Of a stretch of DNA of 64,000 nt, positions 13,376 through 18,688 are shown piece by piece. Source of the stretch: Acinetobacter sp. WCHA45 (GTDB lineage Bacteria; Pseudomonadota; Gammaproteobacteria; Pseudomonadales; Moraxellaceae). The translations under genes were made by a program, and so were the position numbers. Each line of letters opens with the position of its first letter. Positions within the stretch are counted from its first letter, which is position 1. Where the stretch lies: assembly GCF_002165255.2 (NCBI RefSeq), contig NZ_CP028561.1, positions 2,418,001-2,482,000 of the forward strand, read 5' to 3'. Below the pieces are notes generated by a model, which did no database searches, was not told where the DNA came from, and was given only the letters and a program-made list of their open reading frames with translations.

Positions 13376-13411
13376 TAATTTGTACTGAAACTTAGTTTTT
13401 AGTACAAATTA
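13376..13411 (+). repeat. Perfect 11-bp inverted repeat after the ETF-QO gene
   Basis: TAATTTGTACT (13376-13386) and AGTACAAATTA (13401-13411) are perfect complements with a 14-base loop. There is no T-run after it. The insertion sequence begins at the very next base, and the right arm contains the 7-base target duplication. Confidence 0.6.
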
Positions 13412-14206
13412 GGTGGTGTATCAAAAAGTATGCTAAAAAAAAGCAGGTTGAATTTTGATAAAATAGAGAAATGCAAATAACTCTAGAAATCAAATGTCCA
13501 ACCTGCCTCAGTGACAGTATAAAGAAAAATGGCATCAAAGTAGATGGGAAACAAAACTACCAATGCAAAGACTGCAAACGTCAGTTTATTGGTGACCATG
13601 CTCTGAGCTATCTAGGATGTAATTCTGGCATTACTCGTAAAATATTACAGTTAATGGTCAGAGGCAGCGGTATACGAGATATCGCTGAAGTTGAGCGCAT
13701 TAGTATCGGTAAAGTCTTACGGACTTTAACTGAATCGGCCTATCAAATTCAGCCTAAACAAAGTCATTATGAATCTCTCGAAGTAGATGAATTCTGGACT
13801 TTTGTTGGAAATAAAAATAATAAACAATGGCTTATTTACGCCTACCATCGAGAAACAGGTGAGATTGTTGCTTATGTTTGGGGTAAGAGAGATTTAGCTA
13901 CAGTCCAAAGGTTGAAGACAAAGCTTAAACAATTAGGTATTCACTACACCCGAATTGCAAGTGATCATTGGGACAGTTTCATCACTGCTTTTAAAAACTG
14001 CAAGCAAAGTATTGGTAAGTTGTTTACTGTAGGAATTGAAGGTAATAATTGCAAAATAAGGCATCGAATAAGGCGTGGTTTTAGAAGAAGTTGCAATTTC
14101 TCCAAAAAGCTTGAAAACCATTTTAAAGCCTTCGACTTAACCTTCTTTTACATCAATAATGGCTTCATTTAATGTCAGCATACTTTTTAAAACACCACCC
14201 AAATTA
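13405..14206. mobile_element. IS1-family insertion sequence with target duplication
   Basis: The element runs 13412-14199 (788 bp). Its ends are inverted repeats, GGTGGTG and about 16 more bases to AGTATGCT on the left and the complement on the right, matching at 21 of 23 positions. CAAATTA flanks it at 13405-13411 and 14200-14206 as a direct repeat, so it is a complete element that inserted recently enough to keep its target duplication. The 7-base duplication is short for IS1 relatives, which more often give 8-9. One transposase gene is inside and intact. Confidence 0.93.
13471..14172 (+). CDS. IS1-family transposase (single frame)
   Basis: A 233-residue transposase in one uninterrupted frame, corresponding to fused InsA and InsB without the usual programmed frameshift. 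The N-terminal zinc finger is visible (CPTC near residue 9 and CKDCKRQF near 32), then a helix-turn-helix-like stretch (IRDIAEVERISIGKVLRTL), then the catalytic domain with VDEFWTFVG (first Asp), ASDHWDSF (second Asp) and GIEGNNCKIRHRIRRG (Glu and the basic tail). All key residues appear intact, so it may be active. Confidence 0.93.
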   Translation: MQITLEIKCPTCLSDSIKKNGIKVDGKQNYQCKDCKRQFIGDHALSYLGCNSGITRKILQLMVRGSGIRDIAEVERISIGKVLRTLTESAYQIQPKQSHYESLEVDEFWTFVGNKNNKQWLIYAYHRETGEIVAYVWGKRDLATVQRLKTKLKQLGIHYTRIASDHWDSFITAFKNCKQSIGKLFTVGIEGNNCKIRHRIRRGFRRSCNFSKKLENHFKAFDLTFFYINNGFI

Positions 14207-14210
14207 AACC

Positions 14211-14241
14211 AAGAAAGCCTCATGAAATATGAGGCTTTCTT
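14211..14241. terminator. Bidirectional terminator, original end of the ETF-QO unit
   Basis: A perfect 13-bp stem (AAGAAAGCCTCAT / ATGAGGCTTTCTT) with a 5-base loop and T/A-rich flanks on both sides. It now lies 12 bases outside the insertion sequence. It also ends the anti-sigma gene transcribed from the right, whose stop is at 14245. Confidence 0.85.
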
Positions 14242-14244
14242 ATT

Positions 14245-14436
14245 TTAATCTTTCTGTTTTTCATCAAATTTTTTATATTGTTTTGATAATAAACTTAAGC
14301 TCTTCATCTGCTTGCCAAAACGTCGACACGAACTACACATCACCACATGAAACTGTAAAGCACTCATTTCTTTGAAGTTCAATGCCCGATCTTGTTTTTC
14401 TGAAAGCAATTGGGTCGCTTCTCGGCACGTCAACAT
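14245..14436 (-). CDS. Zinc-finger anti-sigma factor of the RiPP locus
   Basis: A 63-residue soluble protein, MLTCREATQLLSEKQDRAL, followed by FHVVMCSSCRRFGKQM. The HxxxCxxC arrangement is the zinc-binding anti-sigma (ZAS, zf-HC2) motif, and TCREATQLLS with DRAL is the usual N-terminal helix. There is no membrane segment, so it would act in the cytoplasm. ATG 14436 has AGGAGG upstream and overlaps the sigma-factor stop by 7 bases (ATGTTGA), so the two are coupled; an earlier in-frame start inside the sigma gene is less likely. It is probably the metal- or redox-responsive partner of the sigma factor. It is the last gene of the operon. Confidence 0.82.
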   Translation of the reverse strand: MLTCREATQLLSEKQDRALNFKEMSALQFHVVMCSSCRRFGKQMKSLSLLSKQYKKFDEKQKD

Positions 14437-15047
14437 GAACAATCCTCCTGAAGTAACCATTTGTTTTCTAAGCATTCACGTAGTCTGGCTCGACTGCGAT
14501 ACATTAGAACGTTCAAGTTTGAGATACTTAGCTCTAATTTCTCACAGATTTCATCTGAACTAAGTTCTATCATTTCCCGCAACATAAACACTTGTGCATA
14601 CTTTGCTGGTAAATGATTCAAACAGGTATCAAAAATCATCCAAAAATCTTGCTGCTCCATCATTTCCTCAGGATTCAACCATGCTTTTGGTCTTTCTGAT
14701 TTTTGCCAATGCCCTGAAGCATCAAACAACTCATCCACGCTTCGCTCATTTTCTTCCGTATCAAACAATTCAGACATACTGACTAAACGTTGCTTCTGAC
14801 GAATCAGATCAACAATTTTATTTTTTAAAATAGCGAATACCCATGTTTTAAATGCTGATCGACCAGAAAAAGAACCTGAATGTTGTAAAGCACTGACCAA
14901 AGCTTCTTGCACAACATCCTCAGCTTGATGAAATGAAGAAAGTTGCAATACTGCAAATTTCATCATTTGTTGTCGTAGTTCCATCAGAAAATCATCGTTA
15001 TACAATTGCTGCGATGCATTAGCATTCGATGTTGTCATTTCAGGCAT
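14430..15047 (-). CDS. ECF-type RNA polymerase sigma factor of the RiPP locus
   Basis: A 205-residue sigma-70-family protein. Region 2 is visible at about residues 40-90 (QAEDVVQEALVSALQH, then FKTWVFAILKNKIVDLIRQ) and region 4 at about 140-195 (LPAKYAQVFMLREMIELSSD, then ISNLNVLMYRSRARLRE); regions 1 and 3 are absent, as in ECF sigmas. ATG 15047 is preferred to GTG 15059. It lies 16 bases after the DUF2063 gene and overlaps the anti-sigma gene. Sitting at the end of the operon it probably drives, it likely recognises the paired TGTAA-N17-CG(T/A)CTAAT promoters at 17079 and 17129. Confidence 0.88.
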   Translation of the reverse strand: MPEMTTSNANASQQLYNDDFLMELRQQMMKFAVLQLSSFHQAEDVVQEALVSALQHSGSFSGRSAFKTWVFAILKNKIVDLIRQKQRLVSMSELFDTEENERSVDELFDASGHWQKSERPKAWLNPEEMMEQQDFWMIFDTCLNHLPAKYAQVFMLREMIELSSDEICEKLELSISNLNVLMYRSRARLRECLENKWLLQEDCSC

Positions 15048-15063
15048 CGCGTTTCTCACTATG

Positions 15064-15795
15064 CTAGTCAGGTTTGTATAACAATTCTAAGCGGATCAAA
15101 TCTTCTGCAAGTTCATCCAGTTGAGTATTTACTTCACTGAACGATAGATCAGGAATTATTTGCTGGATAAACTCAGCGAGTGCTATTCGCGGCAATGGTT
15201 GTTGTGCTAATTGCTCAATTAGATAAGCGGTTAATGGAGTCAATATTTCAACACAAACCCGATCATGTTTGTTCCGCCAAACCATGATGGCACTTGGAGC
15301 GGGATCTTTGTGAATTTGATTGATTGACCACTGGTAAACAGGATATTGATACACCAAAACCCAAACTTGTGTAGTCAGCTGCCAATTTAATTCGGCATTC
15401 AAAGTGACATCTTCAATTTCAAGTGTATCCAAGTACAGTTCAAGCCATTCGTATTGCAACAGCTCAGTAAGCCACGGATATTCAAATAAAATAGGATGCT
15501 GCTTTTCTGTGAGAAACTCTCTGAATTGCAATGAGATATCGTTATAAAGCGGAGACTGATTCTGAGATTCTCGAAAAAAATCTGCCAGTAACTGTTGCCA
15601 TTGCTGCTCAGGCAATAAAGATCGAGCCACCGGATAAACCAAATTGATAAATGAGCAAACATTGTTGAACAACAGTTCTCGATAAACTTGCATACGATCC
15701 AAAGCAAAAGGCACTGCTTTTACTGAATTTGGATCACGCAGCCAGTTACAAAAATCATGTTGGGTCTGCTGAAAAGTATGCTCATTCATACTCAT
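15064..15795 (-). CDS. hvfC: DUF2063 / HvfC-like RiPP maturation partner
   Basis: A 243-residue protein with the DUF2063 N-terminal domain (FCNWLRDPNS near 15-24, RMQVYRELLFNNVCSFINLV near 35-54, FFRESQNQSPLYNDIS near 85-100) and a C-terminal half resembling a peptide-recognition region (LAYxL-type, EFIQQIIPDLSFSEVNTQL). In Haemophilus HvfBC, gold-induced Cupriavidus GigAB and Caulobacter bufferin loci, the DUF2063 protein works with the DUF692 maturase and helps deliver the precursor. The start overlaps the maturase stop by 4 bases (ATGA), so they are made together. Function is inferred from family and context. Confidence 0.85.
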   Translation of the reverse strand: MSMNEHTFQQTQHDFCNWLRDPNSVKAVPFALDRMQVYRELLFNNVCSFINLVYPVARSLLPEQQWQQLLADFFRESQNQSPLYNDISLQFREFLTEKQHPILFEYPWLTELLQYEWLELYLDTLEIEDVTLNAELNWQLTTQVWVLVYQYPVYQWSINQIHKDPAPSAIMVWRNKHDRVCVEILTPLTAYLIEQLAQQPLPRIALAEFIQQIIPDLSFSEVNTQLDELAEDLIRLELLYKPD

Positions 15796-16658
15796 ACATT
15801 CACCCCATCGACCAAATTCTGGCTCATTGGGATTAGTGTATGTTGATTTGAATATTGATGCTGTAACTGCTGAATCTTATTCAATTCACTCTGAAGTTGC
15901 TGCCATGTTGGGATATTAAAATCGCGCTCTAATAACGTTGGTTTCACACCACATACCTGATAAGTGTATTCCAACAATGCCCACACGGGATCACATACTT
16001 CAGCACCATGAGTATCAATGAGTAAATCTGTACTCAGCTGTTCATGCCCTGCTATATGTAAATAACGAATACGTTGTTTCGGCATAGCTTCAATGAAAGC
16101 ATAAGCATCTGATTGGTGGTTGATACTATTTACATAAACGTTATTCACGTCCAACAATAATTCGCAATCTGCTTGTGTGATGACTTCACGGACAAACTCT
16201 GCCTCGGACATTTCAGCATTCGGCATAAGATAAGTAGAAACATTTTCTAATACTAATCTTCGCCCTAAAATATCTTGAACTTGAGAAATTCGTTCCACTA
16301 CATACTTCACAGCAGCTTCAGTCATTGGGATAGGCAAGAGATCGTATAGATAGCCACCATCATTGGTATAACTCAGATGTTCCGAATAAATCTTGACTTG
16401 ATAAGTATCTAAGAATTTTTTGATTTGATGAATAAAATCAATATTTAAGGGATGAGGACCACCAATCGACAAAGAGAGTCCGTGACAAATTAATGGAGAT
16501 TTTTCTACACACTGAGCTAGAAGTTTCGCATGTCGACCACCAAAGCCCATCCAATTTTCTGGAGCAACTTCAATAAAGTCAGGATGGTGAGTCGCACCTA
16601 AAAATGCCTCGATAAAATCTCGTCTTAGACCAAGACCCACACTTGTGATTGCATCCAT
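15792..16658 (-). CDS. hvfB: MNIO-family (DUF692) RiPP maturase, HvfB-like
   Basis: A 288-residue TIM-barrel protein of the DUF692 family (multinuclear non-heme iron-dependent oxidase). Likely metal ligands are in the expected order: His in ICHGLSLSIG, Glu/His in IYSEHLSY, Glu in LVLENVSTY, Asp/Asn in LLLDVNNVYVN, His in RYLHIAGH, Asp/His in IDTHGAEV and Glu in LLERDFN. Relatives such as MbnB and HvfB oxidise cysteines of a precursor peptide to oxazolone/thioamide groups that bind copper. It starts at ATG 16658 with AAAGGATT upstream, 65 bases after the precursor gene, and overlaps the DUF2063 gene. It acts in the cytosol before export of the peptide. Confidence 0.92.
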   Translation of the reverse strand: MDAITSVGLGLRRDFIEAFLGATHHPDFIEVAPENWMGFGGRHAKLLAQCVEKSPLICHGLSLSIGGPHPLNIDFIHQIKKFLDTYQVKIYSEHLSYTNDGGYLYDLLPIPMTEAAVKYVVERISQVQDILGRRLVLENVSTYLMPNAEMSEAEFVREVITQADCELLLDVNNVYVNSINHQSDAYAFIEAMPKQRIRYLHIAGHEQLSTDLLIDTHGAEVCDPVWALLEYTYQVCGVKPTLLERDFNIPTWQQLQSELNKIQQLQHQYSNQHTLIPMSQNLVDGVNV

Positions 16659-16677
16659 AAAGAATCCTTTTGGTGAA

Positions 16678-16704
16678 TGACAGCCATCTTTTTAGATGCT
16701 GTCA
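16678..16704 (-). promoter_or_regulatory. Intercistronic hairpin between precursor and maturase genes
   Basis: TGACAGC-c-ATC and GATGCTGTCA form a 10-bp stem with one bulged base and a 6-base loop, in the 65-base gap after the precursor gene. No T-run follows in the minus direction, so it looks like a partial attenuator or an RNA-stabilising/processing element that lets the peptide be made in excess over its enzymes. Confidence 0.5.
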
Positions 16705-16723
16705 TCTACCGTCTGCATAAGGC

Positions 16724-17029
16724 TTAATGAGCGCCACACTTCCCATCAGCCACTTTTTTGTCTGCTCCACATTTTGCATCTGCCATCTTTTTGTCTGCAC
16801 CGCATTTAGCATCCGCAGCTTTTTTATCTGCGCCGCATTTTGCATCAGTAGTTTTGTGTTGTTTTTTCGCTTTATTTGAACCACATTTCGCTTCACCACA
16901 TTTTGCATCTGCAGTTTTAGTCACATGTGTTTCAGTCGTCGTCGATGCTGCCGAAACTTGGGTTGCTGCACCAACCATAGATAATGCAACTAAAGCGGCA
17001 ACCGAAGTCATTGAGTTTAATTTATTCAT
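16724..17029 (-). CDS. hvfA: Secreted KCG-repeat RiPP metallophore precursor (HvfA/bufferin-like)
   Basis: A 101-residue precursor. Residues 1-28 are a signal peptide (MNKLNSMTSVAALVALSMVG, cleavage likely after VSAA). The mature part is polar and has six cysteines, every one inside a KCG motif: ADAKCG, EAKCG, TDAKCG, ADAKCG, ADAKCG and ADGKCG. This resembles the EGKCG repeats of HvfA, where each cysteine is converted by the MNIO enzyme to a copper-binding oxazolone/thioamide. The last 33 residues are three 11-residue repeats. Start ATG 17029 has AAGGAA upstream; an upstream in-frame extension to 17098 runs across the promoter and is rejected. First gene of the operon. Confidence 0.88.
   Translation of the reverse strand: MNKLNSMTSVAALVALSMVGAATQVSAASTTTETHVTKTADAKCGEAKCGSNKAKKQHKTTDAKCGADKKAADAKCGADKKMADAKCGADKKVADGKCGAH
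16727..16825 (-). repeat. Three 33-bp tandem repeats in the precursor gene
   Basis: Three units encode KKAADAKCGAD, KKMADAKCGAD and KKVADGKCGAH. Neighbouring copies differ at few positions, so copy number could change by slippage and with it the number of modifiable cysteines. Confidence 0.85.
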
Positions 17030-17078
17030 TGTGAAGTTCCTTTTAAGTAAATATTGCTTTTGTACTAGGTACATAAAA

Positions 17079-17107
17079 TTAGACGTGCGAACAATCAAAT
17101 TATTACA
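17079..17107 (-). promoter_or_regulatory. Candidate ECF promoter for the hvfA operon
   Basis: On the minus strand TGTAAT (17107-17102), a 17-base spacer and GTCTAA (17084-17079, in the context CGTCTAAT). Layout and -10 type fit ECF sigma promoters. It would give a 5' leader of about 40 bases before the precursor start. The same pattern occurs facing the other way at 17129. Confidence 0.62.
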
Positions 17108-17128
17108 GTCAAATTTAGATTTTTTTTG

Positions 17129-17157
17129 TGTAAGAAATCAAAAATTCAAACGACTAA
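17129..17157 (+). promoter_or_regulatory. Candidate ECF promoter for the divergent DoxX gene
   Basis: TGTAAG (17129-17134), a 17-base spacer and GACTAA (17152-17157, in the context CGACTAAT). It matches the opposing promoter at 17079 in both elements and in spacer length, and lies about 33 bases before the DoxX start codon. Confidence 0.6.
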
Positions 17158-17190
17158 TAACTAATAAAACTTATTCGTTGTGAATTTCTC

Positions 17191-17805
17191 ATGAAAAATC
17201 TAATTTATTCTTTACATAAACGCTATCAGAATTTGGGTTCCAACTTAAATTATTTTGATGGAATCGCTTCTTTAGCGCTTCGCCTATATTTAATTCCTAT
17301 TTTTTGGATGGCTGGACACAATAAACTACAACATTTCAATGATACAGTTGAATGGTTTGGCAATAGTGAATGGGGCTTGGGCTTACCCTTCCCATTGGTT
17401 ATGGCTAGCCTTGCAATTTCGGCTGAGTTAGGTGGTGCTGTCTTACTTGCCTTAGGTCTTGCAACGCGACTGATTTGTATTCCATTGATTATCACTATGC
17501 TGGTCGCTATCTTTACTGTACACATTCAAAATGGATGGCAAGCCATTGCTGATCCACATGCTCCTTTTGCAAATATGCAAGTGATTGAATCGGCTGAAAA
17601 ACTAGAGAAAGCGAGAGAGGTTCTGAGCACTTATGGAAATTATGATTGGCTTACATCTAGTGGCTCATTTGTCATATTGAATAATGGTGTTGAGTTTGCA
17701 GTGACCTATTTGGTTATGTTGGGTGCACTACTGGTTCTTGGTGGTGGAAGATATGTAAGTTGTGATTACTGGATCAATAAAAAACTAATTAAATCAGAAA
17801 GATAG
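17191..17805 (+). CDS. hvfX: DoxX-family membrane protein, HvfX-like
   Basis: A 204-residue inner-membrane protein with four hydrophobic segments: about 24-42 (ASLALRLYLIPIFWMAG), 67-88 (LPFPLVMASLAISAELGG), 92-112 and 165-185. The first pair carries the DoxX signature (HNKLQHF after helix 1, AELGGAVLLALGLATR). Between helices 3 and 4 is a 50-residue loop. DoxX proteins accompany MNIO/DUF2063 RiPP operons (HvfX, GigT) and are thought to support maturation or metal handling at the membrane. Here it is divergent from the precursor and shares a matching candidate promoter, so it is likely coregulated. Confidence 0.86.
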   Translation: MKNLIYSLHKRYQNLGSNLNYFDGIASLALRLYLIPIFWMAGHNKLQHFNDTVEWFGNSEWGLGLPFPLVMASLAISAELGGAVLLALGLATRLICIPLIITMLVAIFTVHIQNGWQAIADPHAPFANMQVIESAEKLEKAREVLSTYGNYDWLTSSGSFVILNNGVEFAVTYLVMLGALLVLGGGRYVSCDYWINKKLIKSER

Positions 17806-17818
17806 ATTGAATATACAC

Positions 17819-18415
17819 CTATCTTAATAGTGAAAGTGCAATCAACCACATGATACAGCCAATCAATAGTTCTAAGACTTTCCAAGCTTTAGGATTTGCA
17901 AATACAGGACGCAATAATCTCGCCCCAAATCCTAAACTAAAAAAGAATAAAAATGATGCTGATACTGCCCCACTGGCAAAAGAGATCTTATCCGCATATT
18001 GAGCAGATATTGAACCTAATAATACAACCGTGTCTAAGTAAACATGCGGATTTAACCAAGAGAAACTGAGACATAAAACTATCGTTTGCCAGAAAGTTGT
18101 TGTTTCTTGTTCAGAAGCAATTAAACCTGACTGCGAATTATAAGCATTGTAAAAGCTGCGGGCGCCGTACATAAACAAGAAGAGTGCGCCGAAATACTTC
18201 ATAGCTTGAATCAACCATGCTTGTTGACTCAATATTGAAGCAAATCCAAAAACACCTAAACAAATTAAAAATGCGTCGGATAAAGCACAGATCAGACATA
18301 CCCAAAATACATGCTGTTTGAGCAATCCCTGCTTTAAAACAAAAGCATTTTGTGCACCAATTGCGAGAATTAAAGAGAAACCTAACAATAAACCTGAAAT
18401 ATATGTAGAAACCAA
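17819..18415 (-). CDS. LysE/ArgO-family amino-acid exporter
   Basis: A 198-residue inner-membrane protein with about six transmembrane helices; the N-terminus GLLLGFSLILAIGAQNAFVL contains the GxQNAFVxxQG signature of the ArgO branch (arginine/lysine efflux). The gene appears to start with TTG at 18415, three bases after the tusA stop, with AAGG in the tusA tail as a ribosome site; no closer ATG preserves the conserved N-terminus. Cotranscription with tusA is likely. Substrate is inferred from the subfamily. Confidence 0.87.
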   Translation of the reverse strand: MVSTYISGLLLGFSLILAIGAQNAFVLKQGLLKQHVFWVCLICALSDAFLICLGVFGFASILSQQAWLIQAMKYFGALFLFMYGARSFYNAYNSQSGLIASEQETTTFWQTIVLCLSFSWLNPHVYLDTVVLLGSISAQYADKISFASGAVSASFLFFFSLGFGARLLRPVFANPKAWKVLELLIGCIMWLIALSLLR

Positions 18416-18418
18416 AAC

Positions 18419-18688
18419 TTAGCCTTTTTGCACTAAGTAACGATATTCGGTATGACTATTTGCACCAAGGCTTTCTTCTTTAAGCAGTAACTCATGCCCA
18501 AGATGCATACAAAATTTTGGAATATCCCATGAGGTGGAAGGGTCTGTGGCAAGTACCTCAACAATATCACCTGATTTTGCTTTACGAATCGCTTGATGCA
18601 ACATCATGACTGGCTCAGGGCAACGCAAGCCTCTGGTATTCAGTTGAACCGTAGGAAGTTGAGGTTGTTCAGACATCATCATACTCAT
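18419..18688 (-). CDS. tusA: Sulfurtransferase TusA-family protein
   Basis: A small SirA/TusA-fold protein with the LRCPEPVMMLHQAIR motif, including the catalytic cysteine (Cys23 in the 89-residue form). TusA relays persulfide sulfur from IscS toward tRNA 2-thiouridine synthesis and other pathways. Several methionines at the start (MSMMMSEQ) leave the exact N-terminus uncertain; the product is 85-89 residues. It is upstream of and very close to the ArgO-like gene. Confidence 0.88.
   Translation of the reverse strand: MSMMMSEQPQLPTVQLNTRGLRCPEPVMMLHQAIRKAKSGDIVEVLATDPSTSWDIPKFCMHLGHELLLKEESLGANSHTEYRYLVQKG

Follow-up and report, generated by a model that had tools for sequence, protein, structure and literature searches.

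A probable self-controlled captophorin-type operon in Acinetobacter, organised like the Neisseria sigma-E operon

In a 64,000-nt stretch of the Acinetobacter sp. WCHA45 genome (NZ_CP028561.1, positions 2,418,001 to 2,482,000; hereafter the window, whose numbering is used throughout), six genes at positions 14245-17805 encode an HvfA-like precursor peptide, HvfB, HvfC, an extracytoplasmic function (ECF) sigma factor, a zinc-associated anti-sigma (ZAS) protein and, in divergent orientation, HvfX. It is very probable, as regards both class and regulatory logic, that this locus is a self-controlled operon of the oxazolin/captophorin type, resembling the Neisseria sigma-E operon in layout. By analogy with characterised systems, the gene set probably makes a copper-binding peptide. 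The gene identities, promoter motifs, ZAS residues and co-inheritance that support this interpretation are read directly from the DNA.

Genes were called with Pfam and NCBIfam profiles at their curated cut-offs. On the plus strand, hvfX (17191-17805) encodes a DoxX-family membrane protein (NF050144, 233.9 bits for a cut-off of 80; Pfam DoxX). All the other genes lie on the minus strand, starting with that of the 101-aa precursor (16724-17029; NF050137, 42.1 bits, cut-off 19.5). This is followed by hvfB (15792-16658), which encodes a maturase of the MNIO (DUF692) family recovered by an equivalog-level profile (NF003818, 411.6 bits, cut-off 360) and similar to PDB 3BWW (E 3e-67), an enzyme reported to share 72.4% identity with Haemophilus HvfB (PMC13419390). 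The LDVNN, DTHG and ERD stretches are kept in the window HvfB and align with 3BWW. The DUF2063 partner protein is encoded by hvfC (15064-15795; NF050145, 177.9 bits, cut-off 142; PDB 3DEE, E 7e-15), which overlaps hvfB by 4 nt. The ECF gene (about 14430-15047; NF009196, 333.2 bits, cut-off 287; TIGR02943, 240.7 bits, cut-off 162.2) has its first in-frame ATG at 15047 and a GTG at 15059, and overlaps zas (14245-14436) by 7 nt. A 13-bp perfect inverted repeat directly 3' of zas (14211-14241) is a possible terminator. Reading frames and family profiles thus bear out the six-gene content and placement given in a preliminary description of this DNA. The arrangement is not due to chance, because the identical divergent cassette occurs at 39 further loci of the genus.

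Self-control is indicated by the hvfX-hvfA intergenic region, which contains two predicted ECF-type promoters. The first, GTAATAATTTGATTGTTCGCACGTCTAA (17106-17079, minus strand), faces hvfABC-ecf-zas and reads GTAATAA-N14-CGTCTAA, while the second, GTAAGAAATCAAAAATTCAAACGACTAA (17130-17157, plus strand), faces hvfX and reads GTAAGAA-N14-CGACTAA. With the -10 element read as CG(A/T)CTA, both promoters are found in all 40 canonical Acinetobacter loci, window included; when a seventh -10 base is required, both are found in 39 of them, as the hvfA side of one locus (L050; L and G numbers are our designations for loci and genomes) reads CGTCTAT. The two -10 elements differ in a consistent manner: the operon side carries CGTCTA and the hvfX side CGACTA in 39 of the 40 loci, L050 alone having CGTCTA on both sides. 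Among distinct sequences from the 39 loci besides the window (18 on the hvfA side and 25 on the hvfX side), mean conservation is 0.97-1.0 in the -35 and -10 elements vs 0.63-0.66 in the spacer. Moreover, ahead of hvfA the motif is missing from all four hvf loci in which ecf, zas and hvfX are absent; one of them, L041, has a single relaxed form elsewhere. The autoregulation proposed in the preliminary description is therefore backed, at the level of predicted sites, by two conserved ECF-type promoters.

These promoters agree in part with the published sigma-E consensus of N. meningitidis, GTMAGBWTT and CGTCTAAH separated by 12-13 nt (PMC2893595). By eye, each window site matches 7 of the 9 positions of the first element; in the second, the hvfA site matches 8 of 8 and the hvfX site 7 of 8. 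The spacer is 12 nt long in both. In N. gonorrhoeae, an exact match to the consensus lies 62 nt upstream of hvfX.

The strict motif GTAAKAA-N14-CGWCTAA occurs twice in the WCHA45 genome. Since both sites are at the locus, a single-locus regulon is predicted, and in this genome the regulon apparently consists of this locus only. Over 149 genomes, hand counts gave 96 listed matches, of which 79 are at hvf loci and 17 elsewhere, vs 104 in the reversed control. A larger regulon was considered and rejected: the loose motif GTAA-N16 to 18-CGWCTAA gave eight sites in the genome, six of them outside the locus, vs 22 in the reversed control. Five of these six overlap open frames of at least 100 codons, and the sixth (L004) has no such frame within about 800 nt downstream, in a search confined to frames of that length.

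The anti-sigma factor is, as previously proposed, a soluble ZAS protein: it is 63 aa long and matches Pfam zf-HC2 and NF052368, both above cut-off. Its Cys4, His30, Cys34 and Cys37 are numbered exactly as in MseR, the meningococcal anti-sigma factor, in which Cys4, Cys34 and Cys37 are reported to matter and His30 not to (PMC2893595). The Cys-x25-His-x3-Cys-x2-Cys layout is found in 67 of the 68 ECF loci examined (L060 and L094 being the same stretch); at the last one, L053, the ZAS open reading frame (ORF) was not picked up as it runs off the contig, and its N-terminal part shows the layout. A C-terminal Cys-x-Cys is present in the ECF of the window and of all 39 other canonical loci, whereas Neisseria and the majority of distant relatives lack it. 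We considered it as a metal site and did not rely on it, because the overlapping start of zas dictates the final Cys codon. The WCHA45 genome also carries a decayed second ECF/ZAS pair (L059, 5850-6136; C6, about 2.296 Mb), of which only some 42 aa from the ECF C-terminus and a 57-aa ZAS-like ORF are left.

The best comparison is provided by Neisseria (NMB2140-2145 and NGO1948-1943, the latter being the gonophorin cluster), which has the same six genes and an ECF/ZAS pair with identical Cys/His numbering. The meningococcal operon is reported to be cotranscribed, sigma-E-dependent, autoregulated and repressed by MseR (PMC2893595), and in an anti-sigma mutant the other five genes of the operon were up 6- to 36-fold and msrA/msrB 81-fold (PMC3240639). 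The preliminary description had presented the operon's own sigma/ZAS pair as distinguishing this organism, a claim which fails because Neisseria has the same six genes and their regulation has been published (PMC2893595, PMC3240639). The likeness extends to the -10 sequence CGTCTAA and the 12-nt spacer of the sigma-E operon. Several differences remain, however. In the N. gonorrhoeae locus (L089), hvfX heads a single collinear series continued by a KCG/SCG precursor, hvfB, hvfC, ECF and ZAS genes, whereas in the window hvfX is divergent with its own predicted promoter; the Neisseria precursor carries EGKCG/EGSCG motifs instead of (D/E)(A/G)KCG; and Neisseria sigma-E also drives msrA/msrB, while the window regulon appears, by motif only, to be limited to one locus. 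Plasmid copies of the cassette, described below, are another difference of the Acinetobacter-type locus. Protein identities between the window and Neisseria are 47% for HvfB, 39% for the ECF, 35% for HvfX, 25% for ZAS and 23% for HvfC. Haemophilus influenzae hvfABCX, which makes oxazolin, shares the biosynthetic genes, six modified cysteines (in oxazolin) and the type of ECF and ZAS proteins (RpoE2/HrsE). Its hvf genes carry EGKCG motifs and are reported to be RpoE2-dependent and hypochlorite (HOCl)-induced (PMC7907618), but rpoE2/hrsE are unlinked to them, being located near msrAB, which they regulate.

The precursor has a Sec-type signal peptide, judged by eye, and six cysteine motifs: four DAKCG, one EAKCG and one DGKCG. 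The variant motif (D/E)(A/G)KCG noted earlier is thus present, although a Gly precedes the Lys in just one of six cases, and it is not exceptional: EAKCG is native in FonA and modified there, and FonBC takes a DGKCG substrate to full modification, compared with a single modification for an AKCGA one (PMC13097082). In the 39 loci besides the window, the number of KCG motifs is six in 31, four in four, five in two, seven in one and eleven in one, which apparently reflects repeat gain and loss. The fontiphorin (fon) cluster and other captophorins resemble the window locus in their Lys-Cys repeat precursor and in pairing an MNIO enzyme with a DUF2063 partner, but we saw no sigma/ZAS pair described for the fon cluster (PMC13097082). 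The idea that the MNIO enzyme makes heterocycles from cysteines can now be made more precise by analogy. A copper-related, Hvf-type locus of ribosomally synthesised and modified peptides is supported, and the products gonophorin and oxazolin are reported to carry 5-thiooxazoles (PMC13097082; PMC13419390), the chemistry that we would assign here. Gonophorin produced with added copper binds one or two Cu (PMC13097082).

The cassette is well conserved. An HvfB match was found in 45 of the 149 genomes of our genus sample and, judging by gene positions, the ECF gene is in the same locus in 40 of them. The divergent hvfX / hvfABC-ecf-zas order is found in 39 genomes at 40 loci (G026 has two), i.e. 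the window and 39 further loci, with zas running off the contig at L053. One genome (G076, L048) has the collinear order hvfX-hvfA-hvfA-hvfB-hvfC-ecf-zas with EGKCG precursors. In four others (G132, G054, G139 and G091; L040-L043), the fetched stretch contains hvfABC but no ecf, zas or hvfX, and the precursors show SCG or QCG motifs only, two or three each. At three of these loci the hvfC side still has the ETF-QO gene, and at all four tusA lies on the opposite side. The G031 contig stops a short way past hvfC, and that genome gave no ECF match. HvfB is 97% identical in the nearest relatives, and pairwise protein identities are correlated between the genes of the locus (r 0.74 to 0.93, 780 pairs, 40 loci), to which common descent of the hosts contributes. 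Copies of the cassette are also found on plasmids, one of A. ursingii and one of Moraxella sp.; in the latter copy, hvfB and hvfC are separated by an IS4-family gene. Finally, a wider contig scan for the ECF yielded 80 loci, mostly with distant ECFs; neighbours were examined in 24 of them (L092-L115), and an HvfB-like ORF lies near the ECF/ZAS pair in five of the 23 non-Acinetobacter loci examined (L099, L100, L102, L113 and L114).

Chemistry, export, copper binding and sigma/anti-sigma action are here modelled on characterised relatives, and would proceed as follows. In the resting state, the 63-aa cytosolic ZAS would hold the ECF sigma factor. An oxidant or a soft metal reaching the Cys4/His30/Cys34/Cys37 site would free the sigma factor, which would then fire the two divergent promoters (hvfX on one side, hvfABC-ecf-zas on the other), providing both a positive feedback and a built-in brake. 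HvfB and HvfC would convert the precursor cysteines to copper-binding 5-thiooxazoles ahead of Sec export, and the exported peptide would act in the envelope as a buffer against copper (or against damage by other soft metals or oxidants), a role that HvfX may aid in some way. A bolder version, which we put forward tentatively and think rather unlikely as a whole, is that of a self-contained, plasmid-portable switch: the ECF/ZAS pair would target only the two back-to-back promoters, the -10 asymmetry would set the HvfX:peptide ratio, and ZAS would sense copper or hypochlorite directly in the cytosol.

Several observations weigh against a self-controlled operon of this type. The precursor scores below the full-length HvfA equivalog NF050188 (23 bits for a cut-off of 95), and the strict Neisseria sigma-E consensus has no match in the window, so that the agreement is partial. 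The four loci lacking ecf and zas may represent a single evolutionary event, and the 40 canonical loci are related to each other. Meningococcal sigma-E is reported to be unresponsive to H2O2, diamide and singlet oxygen, and copper goes unmentioned in the text of that paper (PMC2893595). Lastly, a class sample of 185 genomes includes 65 with HvfB above cut-off, and a TIGR02943 ECF (E up to 1e-40) lies within 5 kb of HvfB in just three of the 65 (WCHA45, G231 and G275), as judged from lists compared by eye in which weaker MNIO matches were not all included. The ECF-hvfB pairing is thus not general across the class sample.

The alternative that survives best overlaps with the self-controlled copper-peptide operon, and we regard it as quite possible, if somewhat short of an even chance. 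The locus would primarily be an oxidative (hypochlorite, peroxide, disulfide) module like that of H. influenzae RpoE2, in which ZAS senses oxidants, the Cys-rich or thiooxazole-bearing peptide and HvfX protect the envelope, and copper binding is secondary. Both the HOCl induction of H. influenzae hvf through RpoE2 (PMC7907618) and the H2O2 response reported for the gonococcal operon genes (PMC2893595) agree with it, and ZAS proteins such as RsrA are reported to sense disulfide stress. For the signal, published relatives favour copper no more than they favour oxidants. However, the meningococcal sigma-E did not respond to the oxidants tried (PMC2893595), copper is bound by related thiooxazole peptides, whose operons are in many cases induced by copper or gold (PMC13097082), and no msrAB-type repair gene with the strict motif was found elsewhere in the WCHA45 genome (by motif search only, msrAB itself not being located).

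It is improbable that the ECF/ZAS pair is a bystander acting mainly elsewhere, with another factor driving the hvf promoters. In the class sample, most pairs with an ECF of this family lie away from hvfB, and paralogues adjoin unrelated genes at two loci (L044, 5419-6218, and L046, 10315-11117), which would fit such a role. These paralogous pairs, whose ECFs are 56-57% identical, have no hvf genes directly around; by eye, their neighbours include a HAD phosphatase (L044) and AhpD-like, DsbD-like and thioredoxin-like proteins. Against a bystander, the promoter motifs accompany the pair and are not found ahead of hvfA at loci without it, and outside this locus the genome contains no further copy of the strict motif.

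Least probable of all is a bufferin (Gig/Buf1-type) locus: its MNIO, DUF2063 and DoxX core is the same and ECF genes are described for Buf1 clusters, but these combine a DUF2282 precursor with NrsF rather than ZAS (EGKCG clusters having mostly core genes; PMC12452194), while the window precursor has no Pfam match, DUF2282 included, and its MNIO enzyme falls below the BufB cut-off (NF050167, 295.6 bits for 310) yet above that of HvfB. Of the earlier grouping with Hvf, Gig and bufferins, the Hvf part therefore stands and the rest is loose. The Buf1-like locus of a relative also looks different: in G026, which has two canonical hvf loci as well, an MNIO cluster apart from them (L046, 4999-8536) encodes a short precursor that contains Cys and differs from theirs, a further ECF and an anti-sigma-like protein of larger size, and is Buf1-like by eye.

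The window ECF is also distinct from SigAb, the copper-responsive ECF of A. baumannii, an identity that we considered and rejected since operon partners and targets differ: SigAb is encoded with AabA, predicted to be transmembrane, and AabB, and its direct targets are sigAb, relA and sabS (PMC12153292), whereas the window ECF has a 63-aa ZAS partner inside the hvf operon. The same paper refers to a further ECF, present in non-baumannii species, that could be the window ECF or a different one. Antibiotic-induced DoxX and ECF genes of A. oleivorans (PMC4201530) could not be tied to the locus.

On the flanks of the cassette, an IS1-family element (13396-14215; transposase 13471-14172, imperfect terminal inverted repeats) lies between the ETF-QO gene and zas, which are separated by 79 element-free nt in a close relative (L061). 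Past hvfX, LysE-type exporter and TusA genes follow at 17819-18688; an equivalent LysE match was found in just two fetched relatives (L061 and L064), tusA beside hvfX being commoner.

We found no report of such an operon in Acinetobacter in the open-licence literature. As Neisseria already has an ECF/ZAS-controlled operon of this kind, partly studied, the Acinetobacter locus is a well-conserved new relative, which extends the Neisseria-type sigma/ZAS-controlled captophorin operon to this genus and adds two conserved divergent ECF-type promoters, a predicted single-locus regulon and plasmid copies. On the signal, the published relatives disagree, with HOCl in Haemophilus, H2O2 as reported for gonococci and no meningococcal response to the agents tried. 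With two predicted promoters, one sigma factor, one anti-sigma factor and one peptide, the Acinetobacter locus would offer a small system for settling what ZAS-controlled captophorin operons sense.

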